From the NCBI GenBank assembly GCA_016791325.1, contig JAEUMU010000030.1, positions 1 through 10,606 on the forward strand: 10,606 bases of DNA, written 5' to 3'. A program made the translations under genes and the position numbers. Under the pieces are notes generated by a model. It had not been told where the DNA came from, searched no databases, and saw only the letters and a program-made list of their open reading frames with translations. Position 1 is the first letter of the stretch; each line of letters opens with the position of its first letter. Shown here in pieces: positions 1 to 10,264 of this stretch. Source of the DNA: Hyphomonadaceae bacterium (GTDB taxonomy: Bacteria > Pseudomonadota > Alphaproteobacteria > Caulobacterales > Aquidulcibacteraceae).

Positions 1-294
1 GTCCGCGCCATGTTCGAGGCAAGCGATAGCTTGGTCGACTGTGCGAATGCCACCCGCCACACAGAGCGGCACATCCAACGCCCGCGCAACGCGCGCCAGC
101 CATGCGTAGTCCAACGTACGGCCCTCCGGGGAGGCGGAGATGTCGTAAATGACAATCTCATCGGCGCCCTGATCGCGATAGCGCCGCGCCAGCTCCACTG
201 GATCGCCGGCGTCGACATGGCCTTCGAAGCGCACGCCCTTGACCACGCGCCCGCCTTTCACATCAAGGCAGGGGATAATGCGTCTAGCTGGCAA
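1..294 (-). CDS. hisF: Imidazole glycerol phosphate synthase cyclase subunit HisF (5' part, cut by window edge)
   Basis: HisF is the cyclase half of the HisF-HisH synthase. It uses ammonia from HisH to convert PRFAR into imidazole glycerol phosphate and AICAR in the cytoplasm. Only the first 98 codons are visible. The (beta/alpha)8-barrel start [19 protein letters not shown] puts the catalytic Asp at residue 11, the usual HisF position, which supports a TTG start at 294. A GGAGG stands six bases upstream of this TTG, and no ATG lies near. The gene overlaps the end of hisA by 11 bases, implying translational coupling. The stretch [10 protein letters not shown] followed by CVAGGIR resembles, from memory, the E. 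coli type (YDITAS..GR, CVAGGI) more than the usual alphaproteobacterial HisF. The family is certain; the start codon is likely. Confidence 0.95.
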
Positions 295-1006
295 GGGCGT
301 CCTCCAGCGTAAATCGTCGCTCGTAGAGCGCGCGCCCGATAATGGCCCCAGCAGCGCCGGCGGCGCGCAAGGCCTTCAGATCCTCAAGCGTCGCCACGCC
401 GCCGGAGGCTTGAATGAGAACATCGGGCCGCTGGCTCGCAAGCCCGGCCATGAGCGCGACGTTAGGGCCGGTCAAAACGCCATCACGCGAAATGTCGGTC
501 ACCAACGCATGCCTCAGCGCGCCTTCGGGATACTGCGCCAATACATCGCCAAGCATGCGGCCCGAGCCCTTGGCCCAGCCGTCCACGGCGGCTTCATAGC
601 CGTTCGCCACGGCGCGAACGTCGAACGCGCAGCACACGCGCTCGGCGCCCAGCGCTTCGACCCATGCGCGTACGTCTGCGGGCCGCTTAACCGCCGCCGA
701 TCCCACGACCACACGCGCGACACCGGCCTCAAGCAGCGCTTCAACGTGTGCGCGCTCACGCACGCCGCCACCCGATTGAACCCTGAGGCCGCTTTCACGG
801 GCGATCGCGCCGATAAGTTCGTGTTGCGCGGGCGCGCCAGCGCGGGCGCCGTCGAGATCCACCACATGCACCCATGTCGCGCCAGCCTCCGCGAAAGCGC
901 GCGCTTGGGCAAAGGGCTCGCCATACTCGGTGACGTCGTCGAAGCAACCATGCTTGAGGCGCACGCAGCGCCCGCCAATAAGGTCGATGGCCGGATAGAT
1001 CAGCAT
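284..1006 (-). CDS. hisA: Phosphoribosylformimino-AICAR-phosphate isomerase HisA (ProFAR isomerase)
   Basis: HisA carries out the Amadori rearrangement of ProFAR to PRFAR, the step before the HisF-HisH synthase. The protein is 240 residues, normal for this (beta/alpha)8 barrel. The first strand carries [14 protein letters not shown] with catalytic Asp8. Phosphate-binding repeats are QSGGGVR (78-83) and QASGGV (199-204). The second catalytic Asp is D129 in AFDVR, and TDISRDG follows at 170-176. The frame extends 23 codons upstream, but the conserved start MLIYPAIDL sets the start at 1006. That ATG overlaps the end of hisH (ATGCTGA, 7 bases). HisA-type barrels with [15 protein letters not shown] and TDISRDG resemble the E. 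coli protein from memory. All key residues are intact. Confidence 0.97.
301..305 (-). promoter_or_regulatory. Ribosome binding site deciding the TTG start of hisF
   Basis: The minus strand reads GGAGG here, inside the 3' end of hisA, six bases before TTG at 294. A consensus Shine-Dalgarno at good spacing, together with the correct register of HisF Asp11, argues for TTG rather than a missed ATG. Confidence 0.7.
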
Positions 1007-1596
1007 GGCAGGATCGCAAAGTTGCGCAGAATGCGGGCGCCGACTGCCCCTGAGCGTTCGGGGTGAAACTGGCACCCAAAACTCCGCTGATCGCCAACAA
1101 TCGCCGCGAAAGGCTGCCCATACTCCGCCTGCGCCAAGGTGAACTGGTTCAGCGGGCAGACGTAGGAATGCACGAAATACGCATAATCGCCCTCGTGCAC
1201 GCCTTCGAGCAGCGGATGGTCAGCCACCGCATGCAGCCTGCTCCAACCCATATGTGGTGAAATCGCATCCGGAGAGGAGGGCAGGCGCGTTACGGCGCCC
1301 GGGAACCGGCCCAATCCTTGGGCGTCGCCTTCCTCGCTGCGTTCAAACAAGAGCTGCTGGCCTAAACAAATGCCGAGCAGCGGCCGCGAGAAGCGACGCA
1401 ACACTTCACGCAAGCCGCGCTGATCGATCAGCGCCATCGCGTGCGCCGCCGCGCCTACGCCCGGCAACACGAGGCGCGGCGCTTCGCTAATCTGCGTGGC
1501 GTCATCGCTGAGCGCCGCGTCTATGCCCAGGCGCTCAAACGCGAACATCACCGCCGCTGTGTTGCCGACGCCCAGCTTCGCCACCACCACGCTCAC
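1000..1596 (-). CDS. hisH: Imidazole glycerol phosphate synthase glutaminase subunit HisH
   Basis: HisH is a class I glutamine amidotransferase that hydrolyses glutamine and feeds ammonia into the HisF barrel. At 198 residues it has the usual length. The triad is visible: Cys77 in LLGICLGQQ, and His178 and Glu180 in CQFHPERSG. The oxyanion/tunnel region LVLPGVGA (42-49) and the family signatures PHMGWSR and YFVHSY are present. The start is GTG at 1596, which overlaps the stop of the hisB fusion as GTGA; no better in-frame start lies upstream. The N-terminus reads KLGVGN where many homologues have DYGxGN, a conservative oddity distant from the active site. FVHSY-x-CPLN and QFHPERSGAVGA resemble the enterobacterial HisH from memory. 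Confidence 0.96.
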   Translation of the reverse strand: MSVVVAKLGVGNTAAVMFAFERLGIDAALSDDATQISEAPRLVLPGVGAAAHAMALIDQRGLREVLRRFSRPLLGICLGQQLLFERSEEGDAQGLGRFPGAVTRLPSSPDAISPHMGWSRLHAVADHPLLEGVHEGDYAYFVHSYVCPLNQFTLAQAEYGQPFAAIVGDQRSFGCQFHPERSGAVGARILRNFAILPC

Positions 1597-2969
1597 GCCA
1601 ACATCCCCTTGGTCGAGGGCGTGGCGTCGCCTTCTATGCGAACAGCCTGGCGCAATGCCCGGCCCAGCGCCTTGAAGCAGGCTTCTGTTTTATGGTGATC
1701 ATTCTCGCCTTTCACGCTCACATGGATGCTGGCCCCAAGGCTCTGCGCGAGGGATCGAAACACGTGCTCGGTCATCTCTGTCGGGTAGGCGCCCAGCAGC
1801 GGCGCGGTGAACGCCGCTTCCCAGACAAGATACGGCCGCCCGCCGAGGTCGATCGAGAGGCGCGCTTCGGCCTCATCCATGGGCAACAAGAAGCCGTAGC
1901 GGGCGATGCCGCGCTTTTCGCCGAGCGCCTGGCGCAGCGCTTGGCCGAAGGCGATCGCGCAGTCCTCGATGCTGTGGTGCGCATCGACGTGCAAATCACC
2001 ATCGCAGCGCAGTTCAAGGGTGAAGCCGCCGTGGGCGGCCACTTGCTCAAGCATGTGGTCGAAGAATCCGAGCCCTGTCTCAATGCGCGATCCGCCTTCG
2101 TGGCCGAGATCCACCCGGGCTGTGATGCGCGTTTCCTTGGTTTCGCGCAGCACTTCGCCCGTGCGTCGTGCGCTCGGTGCGCTGATCGCGCCAAGGGCCA
2201 GCAGCGCGCGATCATTCAGTTCCGGCGCGCCAACATCGATGCGAAAAATTTCAGCACTGACCCACGCGCCCTGTGCGCCGTGCCGCGCCAGCGCTGAACG
2301 CGCGGTGTCGCGATTTTCAGGCCGCACGAAAACGAACGGCCCTTGGCCCGGTGTCAACACCCCGCGGTTCGCCAGCGCTTGCTTTATCCGCGCCACCTCC
2401 GACTTCGCATCGCGAATGCGCCGCTCGCGCAGATAGGCTTTCTGGGGATCAAGCGCGGCCATCGCCAGGGAGATGGTGGAAGGCGCGAACGCGTCGGGCT
2501 CCAAGCGGCCCGCGCACGCCTCGACCAGATCCGGCGCGCCAATCAACGCAGCACAGGGTTCGCCTTGAAGACCAAACTCAAGCCCAAGATTACGAATGAC
2601 AATCACATGGTCCGCGGCAAGCGCACAGCTTGGGCTGTCGCCAAAGGCGATTAGTGTTTCGTCCACAACCACCAACACGCTGCTGAGCGCCGCCTCAGCA
2701 GCTGTGACGACGCCGCCATCGTGCGGATCGGGTGATGTCCGCACCACCACATCCGCGCCATCTTCCACCAGCGAAAAGCCGTACGCGCGCGCAGCGCGCT
2801 CGGCGCTATCGCTTTTTGGCGCCGCGACTGCGCAGCGTTCCCCACGCAGCAGCAACGCCACCCCGTGCCAGAGCCCGCGCACCGGTAAGATGCAAGCTGC
2901 GTCCAGGCCAATGGCCGTCGCCATGCGTTCGCGCAACGGCGCGAGCTCCGGTGGAAGGACGTCAGCCAT
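1593..2969 (-). CDS. hisB: Fusion of a degenerate HisC-like aminotransferase domain and imidazoleglycerol-phosphate dehydratase HisB
   Basis: The predicted protein is 458 residues. Residues about 268-458 are a complete IGPD, which dehydrates imidazole glycerol phosphate to imidazole acetol phosphate. Its manganese-binding motifs are intact: FFDHML (302-307), HHSIED (331-336), PMDEA and DHHKTEA (424-430), with PSTKG near the end. Residues 1 to about 265 align with HisC-type fold-I aminotransferases. VVDETLIAF (101-109) matches VVDEAYxxF, IRNLGLEFGLQG (125-136) matches RTxSKAFGLAG, and FRIDVG (242-247) matches LRITVG. The PLP lysine is Leu130, the PLP-contacting Tyr is Leu106, the NPTG loop is replaced by PDPHDGG, and the domain is shorter than the ~350-residue HisC. 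Aminotransferase activity is therefore unlikely. The start is ATG 2969, overlapping hisD by 8 bases; the longer frame upstream is an Arg/Trp-rich antisense-like extension. The dehydratase call is certain; the role of the front domain is unknown. Confidence 0.9.
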   Translation of the reverse strand: MADVLPPELAPLRERMATAIGLDAACILPVRGLWHGVALLLRGERCAVAAPKSDSAERAARAYGFSLVEDGADVVVRTSPDPHDGGVVTAAEAALSSVLVVVDETLIAFGDSPSCALAADHVIVIRNLGLEFGLQGEPCAALIGAPDLVEACAGRLEPDAFAPSTISLAMAALDPQKAYLRERRIRDAKSEVARIKQALANRGVLTPGQGPFVFVRPENRDTARSALARHGAQGAWVSAEIFRIDVGAPELNDRALLALGAISAPSARRTGEVLRETKETRITARVDLGHEGGSRIETGLGFFDHMLEQVAAHGGFTLELRCDGDLHVDAHHSIEDCAIAFGQALRQALGEKRGIARYGFLLPMDEAEARLSIDLGGRPYLVWEAAFTAPLLGAYPTEMTEHVFRSLAQSLGASIHVSVKGENDHHKTEACFKALGRALRQAVRIEGDATPSTKGMLA

Positions 2970-4257
2970 GGCGGGGGAGTCTAACGTCAGCGGCGCGTGC
3001 GTGTGCTTCCAGTCCCTCCAGTCGCGCCAGCCGCGCCGCCGCCGGCGCCAGCGCCGCCGCGCCATCGCGGCTGATTTCCTGCACCACAAAGCTTTTCATG
3101 AACGAGGCGGCGTTCACGCCGCTCCACGTAGCGGCTGCGCCATCCGTCGGCAGAACGTGGCTCGGTCCGCAAACATAGTCGCCAAACGTCTCGCCGCTCC
3201 AGCGTCCGACGAATACCGCGCCGGCATTGCTGATGCGCTCAACAACCCGCTCCGGTTCTGCAGTCTGCACCGAGAGATGTTCGGGCGCGTAAACGTTGGC
3301 GGCGTCCGCAGCCTCAGCCAAGTCGCGCACGATAATGCAGCGCGCGTTGGCGAGCGCGGCTTGCGCAATCGCTGCGCGAGGCAGCGCCGGCGCCTGCGCC
3401 GCCAGCGCGCGCGCGACCGCGTCGGCAAGCGCGGGCGAGGGCGTCGCCAGCAGCACTTGTGCGTCGGTATCGTGTTCGGCTTGGCTCAATAGATCTGCGG
3501 CGATCACCTCTGCGTCGGCGCTGTCGTCGGCGATCACCATGAGTTCACTCGGCCCGGCTGGCACATCGATCTGCGGCCCGCCCGGCAGGCTCGCCGCATA
3601 GCGCTTGGCTTCAGCCACATAAGCGTTGCCCGGCCCGAAGATCTTTTGCGCCTTTGGCGTCACCACACCGAACGTAAGCGCCGCAATCGCTTGCGCGCCG
3701 CCGACAAGCCATAGGCGCTCCAGCCCACAAGCTGCGGCCGCCGCCACCATCATTGGGTGTGGCGCGGCGTTGCGCCCAGGCGGCGTGATGGCGATGCGTT
3801 GTGCCACGCCGGCCACGCGCGCGGGCGCAGCCAACATGATCAAGGTGGAAAACAACGGCGCTGTGCCTGCGGGCGCATAGAGGCCGCAAGAGTCGATCGC
3901 CCGCCAGACGCGCGTGCAGCGCACGCCCGGGGCGATATCCACGCTGAGCGCCCGTGGCAGCGTCGCCTCGTGAAAGCGCGTCACGTTCGCCACCGCCAGG
4001 TCGAGCGCGGCCAGGTCCGCACGATCCAACTTTGCACGCGCCGCGTCGATCACGTCGCACGTGAGTGTAAGTGCGGCGGGCGCGCGCTTATCTAGGGTTT
4101 CGGCCCAGCGCGTGAGCGCGGCTTCCCCCTCCGCCTCCACTTCATTGAATATGCGTTTTACGACAGCGCTCACTTCGCCATCTCGCCGCCGCGTGGGGCG
4201 GGTCAGCGCCCGCGTTTGCGCGGCCGCATCAAGCTCGCTCCAGATTACGCGCTGCAT
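2962..4257 (-). CDS. hisD: Histidinol dehydrogenase HisD
   Basis: HisD is a zinc-dependent NAD enzyme that oxidises histidinol twice to histidine, the final steps of the pathway. The protein is 431 residues, typical for the family. Zinc ligands are Gln259 and His262 (SQAEHD), Asp360 (FGDYVCGPSHVLPT) and His419 (LEAHARA). The catalytic pair Glu326-His327 lies in YAPEHLSV. The nucleotide-binding region includes KIFGPGNAYV (205-214) and DVPAGPSE (231-238). These positions coincide with E. coli numbering as I recall it. The ATG start lies 10 bases after the hisG stop, and the end overlaps the next gene by 8 bases. Nothing appears broken. Confidence 0.97.
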   Translation of the reverse strand: MQRVIWSELDAAAQTRALTRPTRRRDGEVSAVVKRIFNEVEAEGEAALTRWAETLDKRAPAALTLTCDVIDAARAKLDRADLAALDLAVANVTRFHEATLPRALSVDIAPGVRCTRVWRAIDSCGLYAPAGTAPLFSTLIMLAAPARVAGVAQRIAITPPGRNAAPHPMMVAAAAACGLERLWLVGGAQAIAALTFGVVTPKAQKIFGPGNAYVAEAKRYAASLPGGPQIDVPAGPSELMVIADDSADAEVIAADLLSQAEHDTDAQVLLATPSPALADAVARALAAQAPALPRAAIAQAALANARCIIVRDLAEAADAANVYAPEHLSVQTAEPERVVERISNAGAVFVGRWSGETFGDYVCGPSHVLPTDGAAATWSGVNAASFMKSFVVQEISRDGAAALAPAAARLARLEGLEAHARAADVRLPRHG

Positions 4258-4267
4258 CGCTGGCGTC

Positions 4268-5143
4268 TCACATCATCTTTTCGATTGGCAACACCAGAAT
4301 GGCCGAGGCGCCCGCGCCCTTGAGGCGTTCGAGCGTCTCCCAAAAGACCGATTCCTGGCAAACCGCGTGTACCGCCACCGCGTCGTCGCGCCCTGCCAGC
4401 GGCGTCACTGTCGGCGCGCCAGCGCCGGGTAGAATTGCGCTGATTTGCGGCAGCGCCGAGCGCGGCGCGTTCATCATCACATACTTTGCGCCGCGGCTGG
4501 CGACGACGCCGCCCACGCGATCGACAAAGCTCTCCGCATTGCGCTGCAATTCCGGATCGAGCGCTCTGCGCCCACGGATCAGCACAGCTTCGCTCTCGAG
4601 CACTGTTTCAACCGCCGCCAGGCCGTTGGCCTCCAACGTGGCGCCGGTGGAGACAAGATCGCAAACAACTTGCGAGAGCTTCAACCGCGGCGCCACCTCA
4701 ACGGCGCCACGCATCTTCACAATTTCAGCGCCAACCCCGTGCTCGTCGAGAAATCGCCGCAACACGCCTGGATAAGAGGTGGCGATGCGCACGCCATCGA
4801 GGCTGTGCGGCCCTTCATAGCGGAAGCTCTCCGGCGCGGCGATTTTGAGCGCGCACCGGCCGAAGCCGAGCCGCATGACTTCCTCCGGCGCGCGTTCGCC
4901 CTCGCTTGACCGCTCCGCTAGAACATTGAGGCCCACAATGCCAAAGTCCGCGACCCCGTCGGCTACGAACGTGGGAATATCGTCGTCCCGAACGCGCAGC
5001 ACATCGATCGGTGCGTTTTCTATGCGGTAGAGCAGCTCGTTCGCGCCTTTGACGACGCGCAGCCCCGCAGATTCCACAAGTTCCAGGCTCTTGTCAGCCA
5101 AGCGGCCGCTTTTCTGAAGCGCGATGCGCAAACGCTGGCTCAT
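4268..5143 (-). CDS. hisG: ATP phosphoribosyltransferase HisG, long form
   Basis: HisG catalyses the first committed step, joining ATP and PRPP into phosphoribosyl-ATP. At 291 residues this is the long, self-sufficient form. It has two periplasmic-binding-like catalytic lobes and a C-terminal ACT-like regulatory domain (about 217-291) where histidine feeds back, so no HisZ partner is needed. Motifs seen are LQKSGRL (9-15), RVRDDDIP (50-57), ATSYPGVLRRFL (121-132), the PRPP loop DLVSTGATLEANGL (162-175), and the end CQESVFWETLERLKG...LPIEKMM. From memory this closely follows the E. coli protein, whereas many alphaproteobacteria carry the short HisG with HisZ. The ATG overlaps the stop of the upstream regulator as ATGA, and a weak GAAGAGA precedes it. 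Confidence 0.97.
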   Translation of the reverse strand: MSQRLRIALQKSGRLADKSLELVESAGLRVVKGANELLYRIENAPIDVLRVRDDDIPTFVADGVADFGIVGLNVLAERSSEGERAPEEVMRLGFGRCALKIAAPESFRYEGPHSLDGVRIATSYPGVLRRFLDEHGVGAEIVKMRGAVEVAPRLKLSQVVCDLVSTGATLEANGLAAVETVLESEAVLIRGRRALDPELQRNAESFVDRVGGVVASRGAKYVMMNAPRSALPQISAILPGAGAPTVTPLAGRDDAVAVHAVCQESVFWETLERLKGAGASAILVLPIEKMM

Positions 5144-5454
5144 TTTTGTCTCTTCAGTCGGTCAAGCACGCGCCGATAGCCTTGGTAGGGCATGTCTTTG
5201 AGGAACCGCGCCACCCGCACCACCGTCGCCGTGCTTGCATCGGCGCGTTCAGCGATTTCACGATAGGAGAGTTCGCCGCCATCCAGCAGGCGCGCCACCA
5301 GCCAGCGCTCAGAGAGCGCCCTGATTTCGCCCGGCGTGCAAAGGTCGGCCAAGAACGCCTCCGCCTCTTCGCGGCTTTTCAGCGTCAGCAAGGCGTCGAT
5401 CACGTCCGGGCGGGCGGCCGCCGGGGCGGCGCGGAAGGCGGTAGTTGTATTCAT
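5140..5454 (-). CDS. TrpR-related regulator of the YerC/HisR type, first gene of the his operon
   Basis: This is a small DNA-binding protein of the TrpR superfamily, 104 residues. The core runs LLTLKSREEAEAFLADLCTP, then EIRALSERWLVARLLDGGELSYREIAE and the recognition region ADASTATVVRVARFL. This matches YerC/YecD proteins, in which DLCT.xEI, ERW.VA and ASTAT are conserved. Family members in Firmicutes have been proposed (as HisR) to repress histidine biosynthesis genes. Placement at the head of this operon, with an ATGA overlap into hisG, suggests local autoregulation by histidine or a related signal, which is an inference. The frame continues to an ATG at 5505, but the family length, the likely promoter inside that extension and the lack of conservation favour ATG 5454. 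There is no Shine-Dalgarno before it. Confidence 0.88.
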   Translation of the reverse strand: MNTTTAFRAAPAAARPDVIDALLTLKSREEAEAFLADLCTPGEIRALSERWLVARLLDGGELSYREIAERADASTATVVRVARFLKDMPYQGYRRVLDRLKRQK

Positions 5455-5462
5455 GTAGCAGC

Positions 5463-5491
5463 GCGATAGCACATGAGAACACGCTAGGCAA
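5463..5491 (-). promoter_or_regulatory. Candidate sigma70 promoter of the his operon giving a leaderless transcript
   Basis: The minus strand reads TTGCCT (5491-5486), a 17-base spacer, then TATCGC (5468-5463). Transcription would begin about 6-8 bases later, at or within two bases of the ATG at 5454. This fits the absence of a Shine-Dalgarno before that ATG. The four-base arms TAGC (5467-5470) and GCTA (5483-5486), 12 bases apart, lie between and across the hexamers and could be an operator, but they are short. The nearby GGAGGAGGG at 5500-5492 does not sit at a usable distance from an in-frame start. Confidence 0.4.
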
Positions 5492-5536
5492 CCCTCCTCC
5501 AGCATTGAGGCTCAGGTGGTTACCCCCACGGGGAGG

Positions 5537-5557: not shown

Positions 5558-6175
5558 TTACGCGCGCGGCAGCAGGCCGGCGCAGATCACGGCCACATAG
5601 TCGCGTGCGGTTTTCCTTGGCGAGAGATTGCTCCAATCGCCGGGCGCATAGGCGATCCAATTGAGCGCGCCGAACAGATAGTTGGCGGCGATTGCGGGAT
5701 CGGTTTGCGCATCGATCGATCCGTCGGCGACGCCGTCGCGGATAATGTTCTCAAGCATGCGGTCCGCCGCCCGCTGGCGTGTTCTCATTCGCTTTTCGTT
5801 TTCGGGCGAAAGGCCGCGTATGCCAGTTTCCACGAGGGCGCGTCCGAAATTTGTGAAGCCACCCTCTGCGTAGTGCCGCAAGAAAATTTCCAATCGCTCA
5901 AGGCCGGTCCTGTCACTGTCTTGGGCTGCGTCAAGCGCGGTCTTCACCGCGGCGAAGCCAATTTCGTGCAGCTCGAACAGCAGCTGATCCTTGCTCTCCA
6001 CATAATAATAGAGCGTGGGTTTGCTCACATTGAGCCGACGCGCAATGTCGGCGAGCGAAACGTTCTCGAAGCCGTTCTCGACAATCAGATCAGCGGCCGC
6101 GTTGAGAATCGCCTCTTTCTTGCTGGCGAATTGTTCGTGTCGGCGCGGCTTCCGCCTCGTGCGGCGCTCAGGCAT
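5558..6175 (-). CDS. TetR/AcrR-family transcriptional regulator (distal copy of a tandem pair)
   Basis: The protein is 205 residues, the usual length for one-domain TetR repressors. An Arg-rich tail (residues 4-12 hold seven Arg/Lys) precedes a helix-turn-helix: SLADIARRLNVSKPTLYYYVESKDQLL (40-66). The C-terminal ligand domain contains YLFGALNWIAYAPGDWSN. An NWIxxWY-like segment of this sort occurs in TetR regulators of acyl-CoA, lipid and steroid degradation, so a lipid-like inducer is possible but unproven. The gene lies 21 bases after an evident paralogue with the same length and layout. The two are probably co-transcribed and may bind the same operator. Target and ligand are not determined by the sequence. 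Confidence 0.9.
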   Translation of the reverse strand: MPERRTRRKPRRHEQFASKKEAILNAAADLIVENGFENVSLADIARRLNVSKPTLYYYVESKDQLLFELHEIGFAAVKTALDAAQDSDRTGLERLEIFLRHYAEGGFTNFGRALVETGIRGLSPENEKRMRTRQRAADRMLENIIRDGVADGSIDAQTDPAIAANYLFGALNWIAYAPGDWSNLSPRKTARDYVAVICAGLLPRA

Positions 6176-6196: not shown

Positions 6197-6814
6197 TCAA
6201 GATCTTGCAGCGAAGCCGCGTTCGATCATTTGTACAAACTTGTCGGCGAGCTGATCGTGGTCGAGACGATCATTTTCCACGTACCATCGCGGAATCCAGC
6301 TTACGGCGCCAAAAATCATTGCTGCGGCCAGCTTGGGGTCAGCGTTCTGCAAAGAGCCGTCCTTTGCGCCCTCGCGTAGAATCTTTCGCATCGTGGCGTC
6401 TTGCTTGCGAACGATCGCACCCAGTTCCTGCTGGCGCGCCGCTGTAAGTATCCGTCGATCGGTTCGTACGGCGCAACGGCCAAACGTCGTGGACATGATC
6501 TTTACGTAAGCGGGGAGGAAAATCCGCAGCTTGTCGCGCCCCGCGCCTTCAGTCGCCGCTGCATTGTCAAGGGCTGTCGAAATGTCGTCGAGCGTGCGTT
6601 TGGCGATCTCGAACAGCAAATCCGCCTTGCTGCCGATATAATGATAAAGCGCCGCCTTTGAGATCTGCATGCGCTCGGCGACCTCAGCCAAGCTGGCGTC
6701 ACGAAATCCCTTTTCCACGAACAAGGCGGCGGCGCTTGCGAGTAATTGCTCGCGCCGCTCTTCATAGTCTTGGCGGTTGCGGGCCGGCGCAGTCGGCCAG
6801 GGCGAGCTCTTCAT
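6197..6814 (-). CDS. TetR/AcrR-family transcriptional regulator, divergent from the oxygenase gene
   Basis: The protein is 205 residues from ATG 6814. The frame is open a further 44 codons upstream, but the extra part is Cys/Gly-rich and has no TetR similarity, so the shorter start is preferred. The helix-turn-helix is SLAEVAERMQISKAALYHYIGSKADLL (41-67). The ligand domain holds IFGAVSWIPRWYVENDRLDHDQLADK, matching the SWIxRWY type of lipid-related TetR regulators. It is a paralogue of the next gene: both have LYxYxxSKxxLLFE, the same length, and FGAxxWI at the same place. It is transcribed away from the PhyH-type oxygenase across a 276-base region that carries an inverted repeat. This layout usually means the repressor controls the divergent genes and itself. 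No clear Shine-Dalgarno precedes the ATG. Confidence 0.9.
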   Translation of the reverse strand: MKSSPWPTAPARNRQDYEERREQLLASAAALFVEKGFRDASLAEVAERMQISKAALYHYIGSKADLLFEIAKRTLDDISTALDNAAATEGAGRDKLRIFLPAYVKIMSTTFGRCAVRTDRRILTAARQQELGAIVRKQDATMRKILREGAKDGSLQNADPKLAAAMIFGAVSWIPRWYVENDRLDHDQLADKFVQMIERGFAARS

Positions 6815-6984
6815 GACGAACCAGGAATCGCGCCTGACCCCAGACGCCGCTTTGTAGCGTGCATTATGGGGGCAAACGGCAAACGAAACACCTCCGCTCC
6901 CGCATTGAGCAAGGCGAGAGGCGGTCCCGCCCCGGCCCTGGGGCAAGGCGGGCGGCTCCGGTTTCCGGGCGCCCGATTCCGCCC

Positions 6985-7012: not shown

Positions 7013-7078
7013 ATCGCTCTGTCGCAGGACGAACCGCGCCGCAGAGCGCCCGCGCCCTTATGGAGCGCGCAGATCTTG

Positions 7079-7083
7079 GGAGG
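7079..7083 (+). promoter_or_regulatory. Ribosome binding site deciding the oxygenase start
   Basis: GGAGG lies seven bases before ATG 7091. It selects this ATG over the in-frame TTG at 7076, which overlaps the Shine-Dalgarno itself. Confidence 0.75.
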
Positions 7084-7090
7084 ACTGAAC

Positions 7091-8032
7091 ATGGGCACCG
7101 CGTCCGATAACCTCGCGAAACGCCAGGAAGAGAACAAACCTTACCGGGCCGAAGGCTCGCCCGCCGGCGCCGCGCAGCCGATGGATCGGATCTGGGAGGC
7201 GATCCGCAAGCACGAGTTGGAAAGCCACATCGCAGATCTCGAAACCCATGGTTTGACGATCATTCCGCCGGAGAAGGCGGCCCCTGATGGGTTCATAGAA
7301 CGGCTCAAGGCCGCGACGCTGCGCTTTATCGAAAAACAGGATGGCCGGGCGCCGGATTTGGAGAAGGGCGAAAGCCACCGCAATCAAATCCTCGGCGATT
7401 ACCATTACATGGTTCTGCACGATCCTGTGTTTCAGGAAATGTTCTGCCAGCCGGTGGCGTTGGCCGTGCTGGATTATCTGCTTGGCGAGAGTTCAATCAT
7501 TCACGCGATGTCGGCGTTGTGCAAAGGCCCGCACGACAAAACCATTCCGGGCAGCGATCTTGTGCTGCCGCTTCACAGCGACAATCAATTGTTGCCCGGT
7601 CCGTTTCATCCCTATGCCGAGTTCTGCAATCTGACCTGGAATTTGACCGAATATTCCAGAGAAGATGGGTCGCTCGCTTATGTGCCTGGCAGTCACAAGC
7701 TTTGCCGCCATCCGCTTCCCGGGGAGGGGATCGCTCAAGCGGTCCCCGTTGAGGCGGCGCCGGGCTCACTCATCTGCTGGCATGGAAATACTTGGCATGG
7801 CGCGTTCCAGCGCAAGAAGCCGGGGTTACGCCTCTCAATCGGCGCAATCTATTCGCGGCCATATATCTGGCCGCGCCATCCGCTGCGTGAAGACGTCCCG
7901 CAAGCGGTCCTTGACGCCAATCCGCCGCGCTTCGCGCGTCTGTGCGGCAAACACGTCATGACCAATTGGCGCGAACCAGGCCCCACCTATTCGGCCGACA
8001 TTATCCACGCCTACCCGACGCAGTTTCACTAG
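7091..8032 (+). CDS. Phytanoyl-CoA dioxygenase (PhyH) family Fe(II)/2-oxoglutarate oxygenase
   Basis: The 313-residue protein is a cytoplasmic non-haem iron oxygenase of the PhyH fold, expected to hydroxylate an unidentified small molecule with 2-oxoglutarate and O2. The double-stranded beta-helix carries the iron triad: His162-x-Asp164 in LPLHSDNQ, and a distal His, most likely His236 in WHGNTWHGAF (His231 is also possible). Arg247 in LRLSIG probably holds 2-oxoglutarate. EDGSLAYVPGSHK (191-203) and APGSLICWHGNTWH are typical PhyH core segments. The first ~55 residues are a helical extension. The name reflects the family only; no CoA specificity can be read. It is followed after 71 bases by an M20 peptidase on the same strand and is divergent from two TetR genes, so the pair is probably one regulated unit. 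Confidence 0.88.
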   Translation: MGTASDNLAKRQEENKPYRAEGSPAGAAQPMDRIWEAIRKHELESHIADLETHGLTIIPPEKAAPDGFIERLKAATLRFIEKQDGRAPDLEKGESHRNQILGDYHYMVLHDPVFQEMFCQPVALAVLDYLLGESSIIHAMSALCKGPHDKTIPGSDLVLPLHSDNQLLPGPFHPYAEFCNLTWNLTEYSREDGSLAYVPGSHKLCRHPLPGEGIAQAVPVEAAPGSLICWHGNTWHGAFQRKKPGLRLSIGAIYSRPYIWPRHPLREDVPQAVLDANPPRFARLCGKHVMTNWREPGPTYSADIIHAYPTQFH

Positions 8033-8103: not shown

Positions 8104-9579
8104 ATGAAGAAGCCGATATTGGCCGCGCTAGCTGCGGTCTTTATGCTTTGCGCCGTCTTAGTCGGCGTGGTGCTCTATCGCGCGTTGACCTTCGGCGCGC
8201 CGCAGCCGGCCGTGGTGGCGCTTGAGTCTCTCGATTTCAGCATCGACACGGCAGCCGTGCGTTTGGGCGAAGCGATTCGATTTCGCACCGTTTCGCTTGC
8301 AGGCGCCGAGGGCGATGATCCTGCGCAGTTTGAGCATTTCCATCAATGGATGCAGTCGAGCTATCCAGCCTTCCACGCGACCGCTCGACGCGAAGCCATC
8401 GGCTACTCCTTGTTGTACACATGGGAAGGCGCCAATCCCGCGCTCGCGCCAATCATATTGCTCGCCCATCAAGACGTCGTGCCCGTGCCCGGGGATACTG
8501 TCGCAAGCTGGAGCGTGGATCCGTTTGGCGGCAGCCTGCGTGATGGCGCCGTTTGGGGGCGGGGCGCGCTCGATGATAAGGGCTCCTTGATCGCACTGTT
8601 GGAGGCGGCGGAGTATCTGGCCGCCCAAGGTCGTCGACCCGCAAGAACAATTCTGTTCGCTTTCGGACACGACGAGGAAATCGGCGGCGAAAGCGGCGCG
8701 CGCCGCATCGCTGAATTGTTGGCCGCGCGCGGCGTGCGCGCCTGGTTCGCCTTGGATGAAGGCGGCGGCGTGATTGATCGCCACCCCCTCACAGGCGCGG
8801 CGGTGGCGATGATCGGCGTTAGCGAACGCGGATTCGGCGCCATGCGCGTGCGCGCCACGGGCCCGGCGGGCCATTCATCTCTGCCGCCGGCGGAAACAAC
8901 GGTTTCAACCCTGGCGCTGGCGATCACACGCATTCACCGGATGCCGCTTGAGCGCAGTCTGGAAGGTGGCCCGGCCATGGATATGATGCGCGCCCTGGGC
9001 TCTGAGCTTCCCTTGCCCGCGCGCGCGGCTATCGCCAACGAGTGGCTCTTCGGCCCGTTGATCCAGCAGCAAATGGCGTCGAGCCCGCCTGGGCGGGCGC
9101 TGGTCGGCACCAGCATCGCCCCAACCATGCTGCAGGCTGGCGTACGCGCCAACGTGCTTCCCGCCGAAGCGACCGCCATCATCAATTTCCGAATTCATCC
9201 GCGCGATAATGCCGATACAGTGCTCGCGCGCGCCCGTGCTGAGGTGGCTGATCTAGAAGGTGTGACAGTGGAATGGTCTGGCGAGCCTCGAAACGCCGAT
9301 CCGATTTCCAGCTCGTCATCGTCTGGCTATGCGCTGATCGCAGGCTTGTCGCGCGCGCTGTCACCTGAGGCGCCGGTGGCGCCGATGTTGGTTCTAGGGG
9401 GAACAGATTCGCGTCACTACCGCGCGGTTGCTGAAGACGTGTACCGGTTCGCCCCCGTCGTCGCGGGCCTGGACGAAGCCCGCCGCGCGCACGGCGTCGA
9501 TGAACGGCTCACAGTCGAAAACCTCAATCGAATGATCCGTTTCTACATCGCCATCATGCAAACCGGCGAGCACCCCTAA
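8104..9579 (+). CDS. Membrane-anchored M20 family metallopeptidase (PM20D1 / carboxypeptidase S-like)
   Basis: The 491-residue protein is a di-zinc hydrolase of peptidase family M20. Residues about 4-26 form one hydrophobic segment after MKK, a signal anchor that would place the enzyme outside the inner membrane. No lipobox or clear signal peptidase site is seen. Metal and catalytic residues are His122 and Asp124 (LLAHQDVVPVPG), Asp157 (WGRGALDDKG), Glu191-Glu192 (GHDEEIGGE), Asp218 (ALDEGG) and His438 (GGTDSRHY). His257 (GPAGHSSLPP) opens the dimerisation domain. Length and motifs resemble the PM20D1/CPS1 group, whose members hydrolyse or make N-acyl amino acids or C-terminal dipeptides. The start is ATG 8104, with AAGGAG five bases ahead. 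The frame is open back to 7942, but that part is antisense-quality sequence inside the oxygenase gene. Confidence 0.9.
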   Translation: MKKPILAALAAVFMLCAVLVGVVLYRALTFGAPQPAVVALESLDFSIDTAAVRLGEAIRFRTVSLAGAEGDDPAQFEHFHQWMQSSYPAFHATARREAIGYSLLYTWEGANPALAPIILLAHQDVVPVPGDTVASWSVDPFGGSLRDGAVWGRGALDDKGSLIALLEAAEYLAAQGRRPARTILFAFGHDEEIGGESGARRIAELLAARGVRAWFALDEGGGVIDRHPLTGAAVAMIGVSERGFGAMRVRATGPAGHSSLPPAETTVSTLALAITRIHRMPLERSLEGGPAMDMMRALGSELPLPARAAIANEWLFGPLIQQQMASSPPGRALVGTSIAPTMLQAGVRANVLPAEATAIINFRIHPRDNADTVLARARAEVADLEGVTVEWSGEPRNADPISSSSSSGYALIAGLSRALSPEAPVAPMLVLGGTDSRHYRAVAEDVYRFAPVVAGLDEARRAHGVDERLTVENLNRMIRFYIAIMQTGEHP

Positions 9580-9635: not shown

Positions 9636-10073
9636 TCACATATATTTGCCGTGCTTCTCCTCGGCGTGCTCTGCGATGCGCGTGCTCTGGGCTTCAATCT
9701 CGGGTGTCGAGACGTCTGCGAAATCGTCCATGCTGCGCAGCGGCCGGATCTCGATGTCAGAATCGCTGAGTTGAGGGTTAGGGCAGCGTTTCACCCATTC
9801 GATCGCATGCTGCATGGAATCGACTTCCCATATCCAAAAGCCAGCAATGAGCTCTTTGGTTTCGGCGAATGGTCCGTCGGTGACAAACCTGTCCTTGCCC
9901 GAGAAATGCACGCGTACGCCTTGAGAGGAGGGGCGTAGGCCCTCGCCAGCGACGAGTACGCCTGCGTTCACCAGTTCCTCGTTATAATTCATCATCGCCG
10001 CCAGGAGCTCCGCTGGCGGTTGGGCGTCCGCTTCGCTGTGCTTATCCGCTTTGACAATCACGATGACACGCAT
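9636..10073 (-). CDS. DGPF-motif YCII-family protein
   Basis: The 145-residue protein belongs to the YCII/DGPF family (ferredoxin-like alpha/beta fold, COG3795-type). Visible landmarks are MRVIVIVKAD at the start, NAGVLVAGEGLRPSS (36-50), the naming motif TDGPFAETKELIAGFWIWEV (65-84) and the RCP-x-P segment. The C-terminal ~25 residues are charged and variable. The biochemical role of the family is not settled. Members are often found next to ECF42-group sigma factors, but none is visible here. The start is ATG 10073, preceded by AAAGGA six bases ahead; the longer open frame upstream is Cys/Arg-rich and unlike the family. An ECF-type promoter candidate stands 30 bases upstream. Confidence 0.9.
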   Translation of the reverse strand: MRVIVIVKADKHSEADAQPPAELLAAMMNYNEELVNAGVLVAGEGLRPSSQGVRVHFSGKDRFVTDGPFAETKELIAGFWIWEVDSMQHAIEWVKRCPNPQLSDSDIEIRPLRSMDDFADVSTPEIEAQSTRIAEHAEEKHGKYM

Positions 10074-10102
10074 GGAGGGTCCTTTCGCTTTGACGGAGCA
10101 TA

Positions 10103-10140
10103 GGACGAACGAGCCCCGCGCGCGCCGACAAATGCCGACA
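10103..10140 (-). promoter_or_regulatory. Candidate ECF-sigma promoter of the DGPF/YCII gene
   Basis: The minus strand reads TGTCGG (10130-10125), a 17-base spacer, then CGTCC (10107-10103). A second TGTCGG sits exactly ten bases upstream (10140-10135). TGTC at -35 and CGTC at -10 are the pattern of many ECF sigma factors. As I recall, ECF42 promoters have TGTCGA and CG(A/T)C, and ECF42 genes are linked to DGPF proteins. The start of transcription would be about 20-25 bases before the ATG. Confidence 0.4.
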
Positions 10141-10264
10141 TTCTTTTGCGACCGCACATGCGCACCCACCCCAGCGCGCAAGCTGCGGGTCCTCGAATCT
10201 GCGCCGCAAACAGGACAAACCCACCGGCACGCCCTTGCGCCTATGTTATCGCAGATCACAACGA

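Follow-up and report, generated by a model that had tools for sequence, protein, structure and literature searches.

In the enterobacterial bifunctional phosphatase/dehydratase HisNB (NF003937), an N-terminal pathway enzyme is joined to HisB, the imidazoleglycerol-phosphate dehydratase of histidine biosynthesis; HisN is an active phosphatase of a family other than HisC. PMC8305728 describes the HisB of Balneolota as having an N-terminal extension without similarity to HisN. The Balneolota HisB frames L028, L029 and L076 have an extra N-terminal ~100–140 aa, and this extension may be a parallel case, an eroded fused HisN. The locus studied here resembles HisNB in carrying a pathway enzyme fold in front of HisB, and that fold is HisC. 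The literature searched, subscription papers lying outside it, yielded no account of a HisC-HisB fusion, and passages of PMC8305728 and PMC10138114 were among the texts covered; PMC1963479 gave no match for hisC, for which the typography of its gene names may be part of the reason. The preliminary description of this DNA knew of no such fusion, and this agrees with the literature searched. Combined names are nevertheless already assigned to some of the proteins by annotation pipelines: JGI labels some live fusions as both histidinol-phosphate aminotransferase and imidazoleglycerol-phosphate dehydratase.

The window, the whole stretch of 10,606 nucleotides that was analysed, comes from a Hyphomonadaceae bacterium and holds these his genes:

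1..294 (-), hisF, cut by the contig end, called by its N-terminal motif and not by family search
284..1006 (-), hisA (PF00977), start assumed to be the ATG within ORF 284-1075
1000..1596 (-), hisH (PF00117), its GTG overlapping the fusion stop
1593..2969 (-), pseudoHisC-HisB fusion gene, 458 aa
1593..2171 (-), HisB domain of the fusion, residues 267-458 and stop
2172..2969 (-), dead HisC-fold domain of the fusion, N-terminal, residues 1-266
2962..4257 (-), hisD (PF00815), with an 8-base overlap with the fusion start
4268..5143 (-), hisG (PF01634/PF08029)

A frameshift or assembly artefact is excluded, as P0002 and relatives have the same open frame; P0002, the representative of a 3-member database cluster, is uninterrupted along its whole length and has 2 residue differences from the window. 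Relatives found in protein and genome searches also exclude a fusion unique to this genome. Directly upstream of hisG, with a 4-base overlap, lies a small protein of the Trp-repressor family (5140-5505, minus strand), which may regulate the his operon. Also upstream of the his genes are two neighboring TetR-type regulators (5558-6175 and 6197-6946, minus strand), each with a TetR_C_24 domain. Beside the operon are a PhyH-type oxygenase (7076-8032, plus strand), an M20 peptidase (8104-9579, plus strand) and a YCII-domain protein (9636-10259, minus strand), for which the family search revealed no link to histidine.

The C-terminal part passes the curated IGPD cut-offs, with 201.5 bits for PF00475 (cut-off 27) and 247.7 bits for NF002111 (cut-off 231). 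Against the HisNB model, the window reaches 280.3 bits versus a cut-off of 443, with the match limited to residues 267-457, the HisB part, and so it is not a HisNB. Residues H305, H331, H332, E335, H402, H425, H426 and E429, which we take to be the metal-binding His/Glu set of HisB, are invariant in the fusion alignment, confirming that the metal-binding histidines first noticed in the window are all present. Judged by these residues, the HisB of the fusion is active.

Compared with HisC (TIGR01141; PDB 7szp, 1fg3), the N-terminal domain is without the PLP lysine, tyrosine, asparagine and phosphate arginine, and without the N-terminal arm. Asp81 stands where NPTG has its PLP Asn, and the other positions are occupied as follows:

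2580..2582 (-), Leu130 at the PLP-lysine position
2652..2654 (-), Leu106 at the PLP-tyrosine position
2556..2558 (-), Pro138 at the PLP-phosphate arginine position

The aminotransferase class I/II fold is retained, and the TIGR01141 score is 40.8 bits, below the cut-off of 276.55. Structure prediction of the dead domain was confident (pLDDT 92.7), and an unrelated fold was ruled out by structure prediction and comparison; HisB assembles as 24 subunits, and the structure models of the fusion are of monomers. Fold and lost-site residues thus agree with the original view of a HisC-derived domain, devoid of catalytic residues, fused to a complete HisB. PLP chemistry is presumably absent from this domain.

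Using the first 270 residues as the query, a protein search (7997 candidates scored) returned 5 matches, all fused to HisB, and a 19-fusion alignment returned 5999 matches, the best 120 of which were listed. In an alignment of 137 fusion rows, which contains near-duplicates, the lysine, NPTG, the tyrosine and the arginines are all present in 31 (551-565 aa), and 106 are without the lysine (409-500 aa). Among the matches listed, live rows were named Sphingomicrobium and Allosphingosinicella, and dead rows Vitreimonas flagellata, Asticcacaulis and Caulobacteraceae. The live HisC-HisB fusions of sphingomonads and the window's order (L011, L016 and L191-L207, for example) share the domain order, operon slot and HisB lineage of the window and keep the catalytic residues; those with an unambiguous start measure ~545-600 aa, and 14/19 are without another HisC.

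HisB was present in 279 of the 299 genomes of the order, and 114 matched the fusion profile at E<=1e-90. With the live, remnant and excised classes assigned by frame length and match range, these comprised 28 live-length fusions, 1 full-length dead fusion (G099/L208, carrying RSLSSAYG), 37 shortened dead fusions, 22 remnants in which the domain is trimmed to ~200 aa, 25 HisD-HisB genes and 1 truncated case (G169, left unclassified). Sequences were read for 17/28 live, 38/38 dead (window included) and 15/22 remnant cases; the lysine was kept in 17/17 live loci and missing in 37/37 dead loci (L208 included) and in the window. The HisD-HisB sequences read were 5/12 in genus g29 and 13/13 in genus g1, where the frames of L119 and L126 run off the contig end and that of L128 has masked bases. 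In the window's genus, HisB occurred in 24/30 genomes, as 10 dead fusions, 13 HisD-HisB genes in which HisB lies in HisD's reading frame and the HisC domain is absent, and 1 free HisB. This last, at L107 (G127), is of another lineage (45% identity) and replaces the fusion. Among the E<=1e-90 matches and the 31 free HisB placed in the tree, a scope narrower than all non-matching genomes, no free HisB of the fusion lineage was seen. A class sample of 289 genomes gave 8 matches at E<=1e-110, of which 5 lay outside the order; all five are frames of 550-584 aa, and L322, the one read, is live.

HisD and HisB share one frame with a short linker, of 632-636 codons in genus g1, and no such fusion pair was met in the accessible parts of the literature searched. 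The loci are:

Genus g1, complete frames: L108, L110-L112, L114, L115, L117, L118, L121, L124
Elsewhere: loci L218, L220-L222, L225 (f4 g29); proteins P0231, P0241

The dead fused domain of the preliminary description is therefore maintained in relatives, but it is one stage of a series, and elsewhere the domain is live, reduced to ~200 aa or gone. In lineages where HisB sits in HisD's frame the domain is dispensable, and it was apparently lost twice.

Another reading holds that the domain is still an enzyme, through another lysine or a different chemistry. Asp103-Glu104 is invariant in alignment A3, and the full fold is predicted. However, the lysine is absent from its position in 106/106 dead rows as well as in the dead loci fetched, with widely varying replacements; none of Asn, Tyr and the two Arg is retained in all dead rows; and a free HisC exists in relatives. 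We regard continued catalysis as highly improbable. The suggestion that the domain binds imidazole acetol phosphate at its old site also found no support, as the old pocket positions differ among members of the dead clade (kept fractions: Lys 0.00, Asn 0.02, Tyr55* 0.01, Arg335 0.41, Arg222 0.56). Their retention is not significantly lower than that of other conserved columns (0.29 vs 0.40, p 0.43; 0.29 vs 0.47 in columns not mostly gapped, p 0.12), and a pocket kept for a ligand is unsupported, though the difference is non-significant either way.

A search of 80 genomes with the HisC model found a free HisC in 28/28 dead (L208's included, with G094 just below the cut-off), 21/21 remnant and 12/12 HisD-HisB genomes, and in 5/19 live-fusion genomes, 17 of which had the fusion read, while G178 and G272 were counted as live by an in-frame HisC match above the cut-off. 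A live fusion and a free HisC occur together in G287, G004, G223, G111 and G035, which are candidates for the stage just before inactivation. In the window's genus, 9/10 dead and 13/13 HisD-HisB genomes have a free HisC above the cut-off, and all 22 genes share the strand of hisB and lie ~3-4 kb downstream of it. Only the window's own assembly (G000), which is 65% complete and whose contig ends in hisF, departs from this; its free HisC was not seen (best other HisC-model matches <=95 bits), and a gene placed as in relatives would lie past hisF, beyond the contig end. When the free HisC of one genus-g1 genome was compared with the live fused domain, identity was only 23-32% (15/17 live loci, those where the live domain was the better match). 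The free enzyme therefore looks like a member of a separate HisC subfamily, and a recent duplication of the fused domain does not seem to be its source.

Trees were built for five operon genes, the domain and HisB, from part of the loci of each state (86 loci in one set). In the operon tree, the f4 remnant and HisD-HisB clade adjoins a live f4 clade (support 100), and L208 falls among live relatives from f5 (100). The HisD-HisB loci of genus g1 lie in a single clade (98) far from the f4 one. The domain tree unites the shortened dead domains (98), with L208 adjacent (100). The HisB-only tree, which is poorly resolved, with many supports <70 and an arbitrary root, splits the g1 HisD-HisB loci, placing L270 apart from four others. 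The trees conflict on the number of inactivations, through the placement of L208 and the grouping of g1 HisD-HisB loci. Together they point to at least two inactivations, one in the f4 clade and one in the clade to which the window belongs, with L208 as a possible third. On the operon tree there were probably also two excisions, and the true numbers may be higher.

To quantify constraint, omega was calculated by NG86, with no correction for codon or transition bias, on pairs of relatives; the window itself is without a close DNA relative among them. In genus g16 the dead domain is under purifying selection, with omega of 0.07-0.44, each below neutrality at p<=6e-6 (binomial), in all 11 close pairs (11/190 with dS under 0.45, sharing genomes). 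In the same pairs omega was 0.05-0.35 for free HisC, which the dead domain exceeded each time by 0.01-0.16, and 0.02-0.18 for HisB. Median values over 252/253 pairs were 0.33 for the dead domain, 0.15 for HisB, 0.29 for HisD and 0.32 for HisH. The closest pair in the window's genus, L255/L256, gave 0.15, and the median there was 0.37, near saturation (17/28 pairs). Remnants gave 0.66 (g26) and 0.46 (g28), most g1 and remnant pairs being near synonymous saturation; one live pair passed the filter. The ratio of N-domain to HisB protein distance rises from 1.9 in live to 3.0-3.1 in dead fusions, split by length (<=500 aa taken as dead, as also in A3). Omega and protein distance together indicate that constraint was relaxed stepwise and is not absent.

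A neutral relic in the course of being lost, with selection only on the open frame, would be in keeping with the trimmed and excised relatives, the remnant values and an N-domain indel rate in g1 of 2.85 per 100 codons against 0 in HisB (17/28 pairs). The g16 values, the confidently predicted fold and a g16 domain length of 278-290 in 19/20 rows (the twentieth mis-cut; in this set the G201 domain, cut too long at 607 codons, was kept) contradict it, so that for g16 it is largely refuted, and overall we consider it improbable. The claim that the domain is maintained and not decaying is thus upheld in relatives, where synonymous changes dominate, and new residues approach fixation in the dead clade:

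2865..2867 (-), His35, in 93% of 85 dead rows of A3; Asp in 27/27 live rows
2499..2501 (-), Glu157, in 99% of A3 dead rows; Pro in all live rows
2337..2339 (-), Pro211, in 98% of A3 dead rows; Asn in all live rows

These residues and Arg254 are common to the dead clade and, with few exceptions, absent from live rows of its order; they are nearly fixed over Asticcacaulis-, g16- and Vitreimonas-type proteins. L208 is without all four, and L129 without three.

Such residues could mark a selected pseudoenzyme, serving HisB in oligomer assembly, stability or contact with free HisC or HisD through His35, Glu157, Pro211 and Arg254. The omega values far under 1 in g16 favor this reading, as do the constant N-terminal partner of this HisB lineage in the sample and a 200-aa remnant that is also predicted to stay folded. 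However, the domain is gone in 25/114 genomes (two operon-tree clades) and cut to ~200 aa in 22, its pocket residues are not specially kept, its evolution measured against HisB is quicker than that of the live domain, and fold constraint by itself could yield omega <1. A scaffold or regulatory role, as initially proposed, is thus possible, and we hold the selected role to be the main rival account, though the less likely one. Similarly tentative is a stricter form, in which this lineage's HisB needs an N-terminal partner or is locked to one, the dead HisC, with new conserved residues of its own, having been repurposed as an obligate aid to assembly or stability, and its loss leads to HisD and not to a free HisB.

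We consider it somewhat probable that the dead domain persists as a folded leader that HisB tolerates, kept in place by their common start codon and the cost of misfolding. The ancestor would have been a bifunctional HisC-HisB whose dehydratase half supplied imidazole acetol phosphate for transamination by the HisC half. A second, free HisC may then have rendered the fused one redundant, after which the lysine and tyrosine of the PLP site, the phosphate arginine, the NPTG loop and the N-terminal arm would have disappeared from the HisC half, leaving a compact, folded, non-catalytic domain on an active HisB, with a mainly structural and translational function. The domain would be kept because HisB is made only within this frame, its start codon lying in the dead domain and overlapping the end of hisD, so that damage to the fold or frame would damage HisB. 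Where deletions chanced to restore a clean frame, the domain may have shrunk or vanished, and HisB joined HisD. Against this passive leader, the g16 constraint exceeds the need of a mere leftover, and this constraint and the nearly fixed derived residues also fit a selected role; the conflicting trees and the unseen free HisC of the window count against it as well. That HisB of this lineage was not seen free fits the passive leader and the selected role alike.

Within one order, a single operon slot thus spans a series that starts with live fusions, some accompanied by a redundant free HisC, continues with dead domains of full and then reduced length, and ends with a 200-aa remnant and with removal of the domain to give HisD-HisB. 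Why a dead domain long stays folded, and what finally frees a fused domain, can now be tested. If the partner-locked reading is true, this is a natural experiment on how an enzyme domain caught within an essential fusion can die, shrink and be exchanged. Annotators should not expect a HisC signal before HisB to provide the transaminase in Asticcacaulis, Vitreimonas and their relatives. Pseudoenzyme domains in general are dead catalytic folds retained by selection, as here, and pseudoenzymes are mostly observed as end points. Unlike them, the live, dead, trimmed and excised forms described here share one locus in one order, and loss goes with a substitute enzyme.
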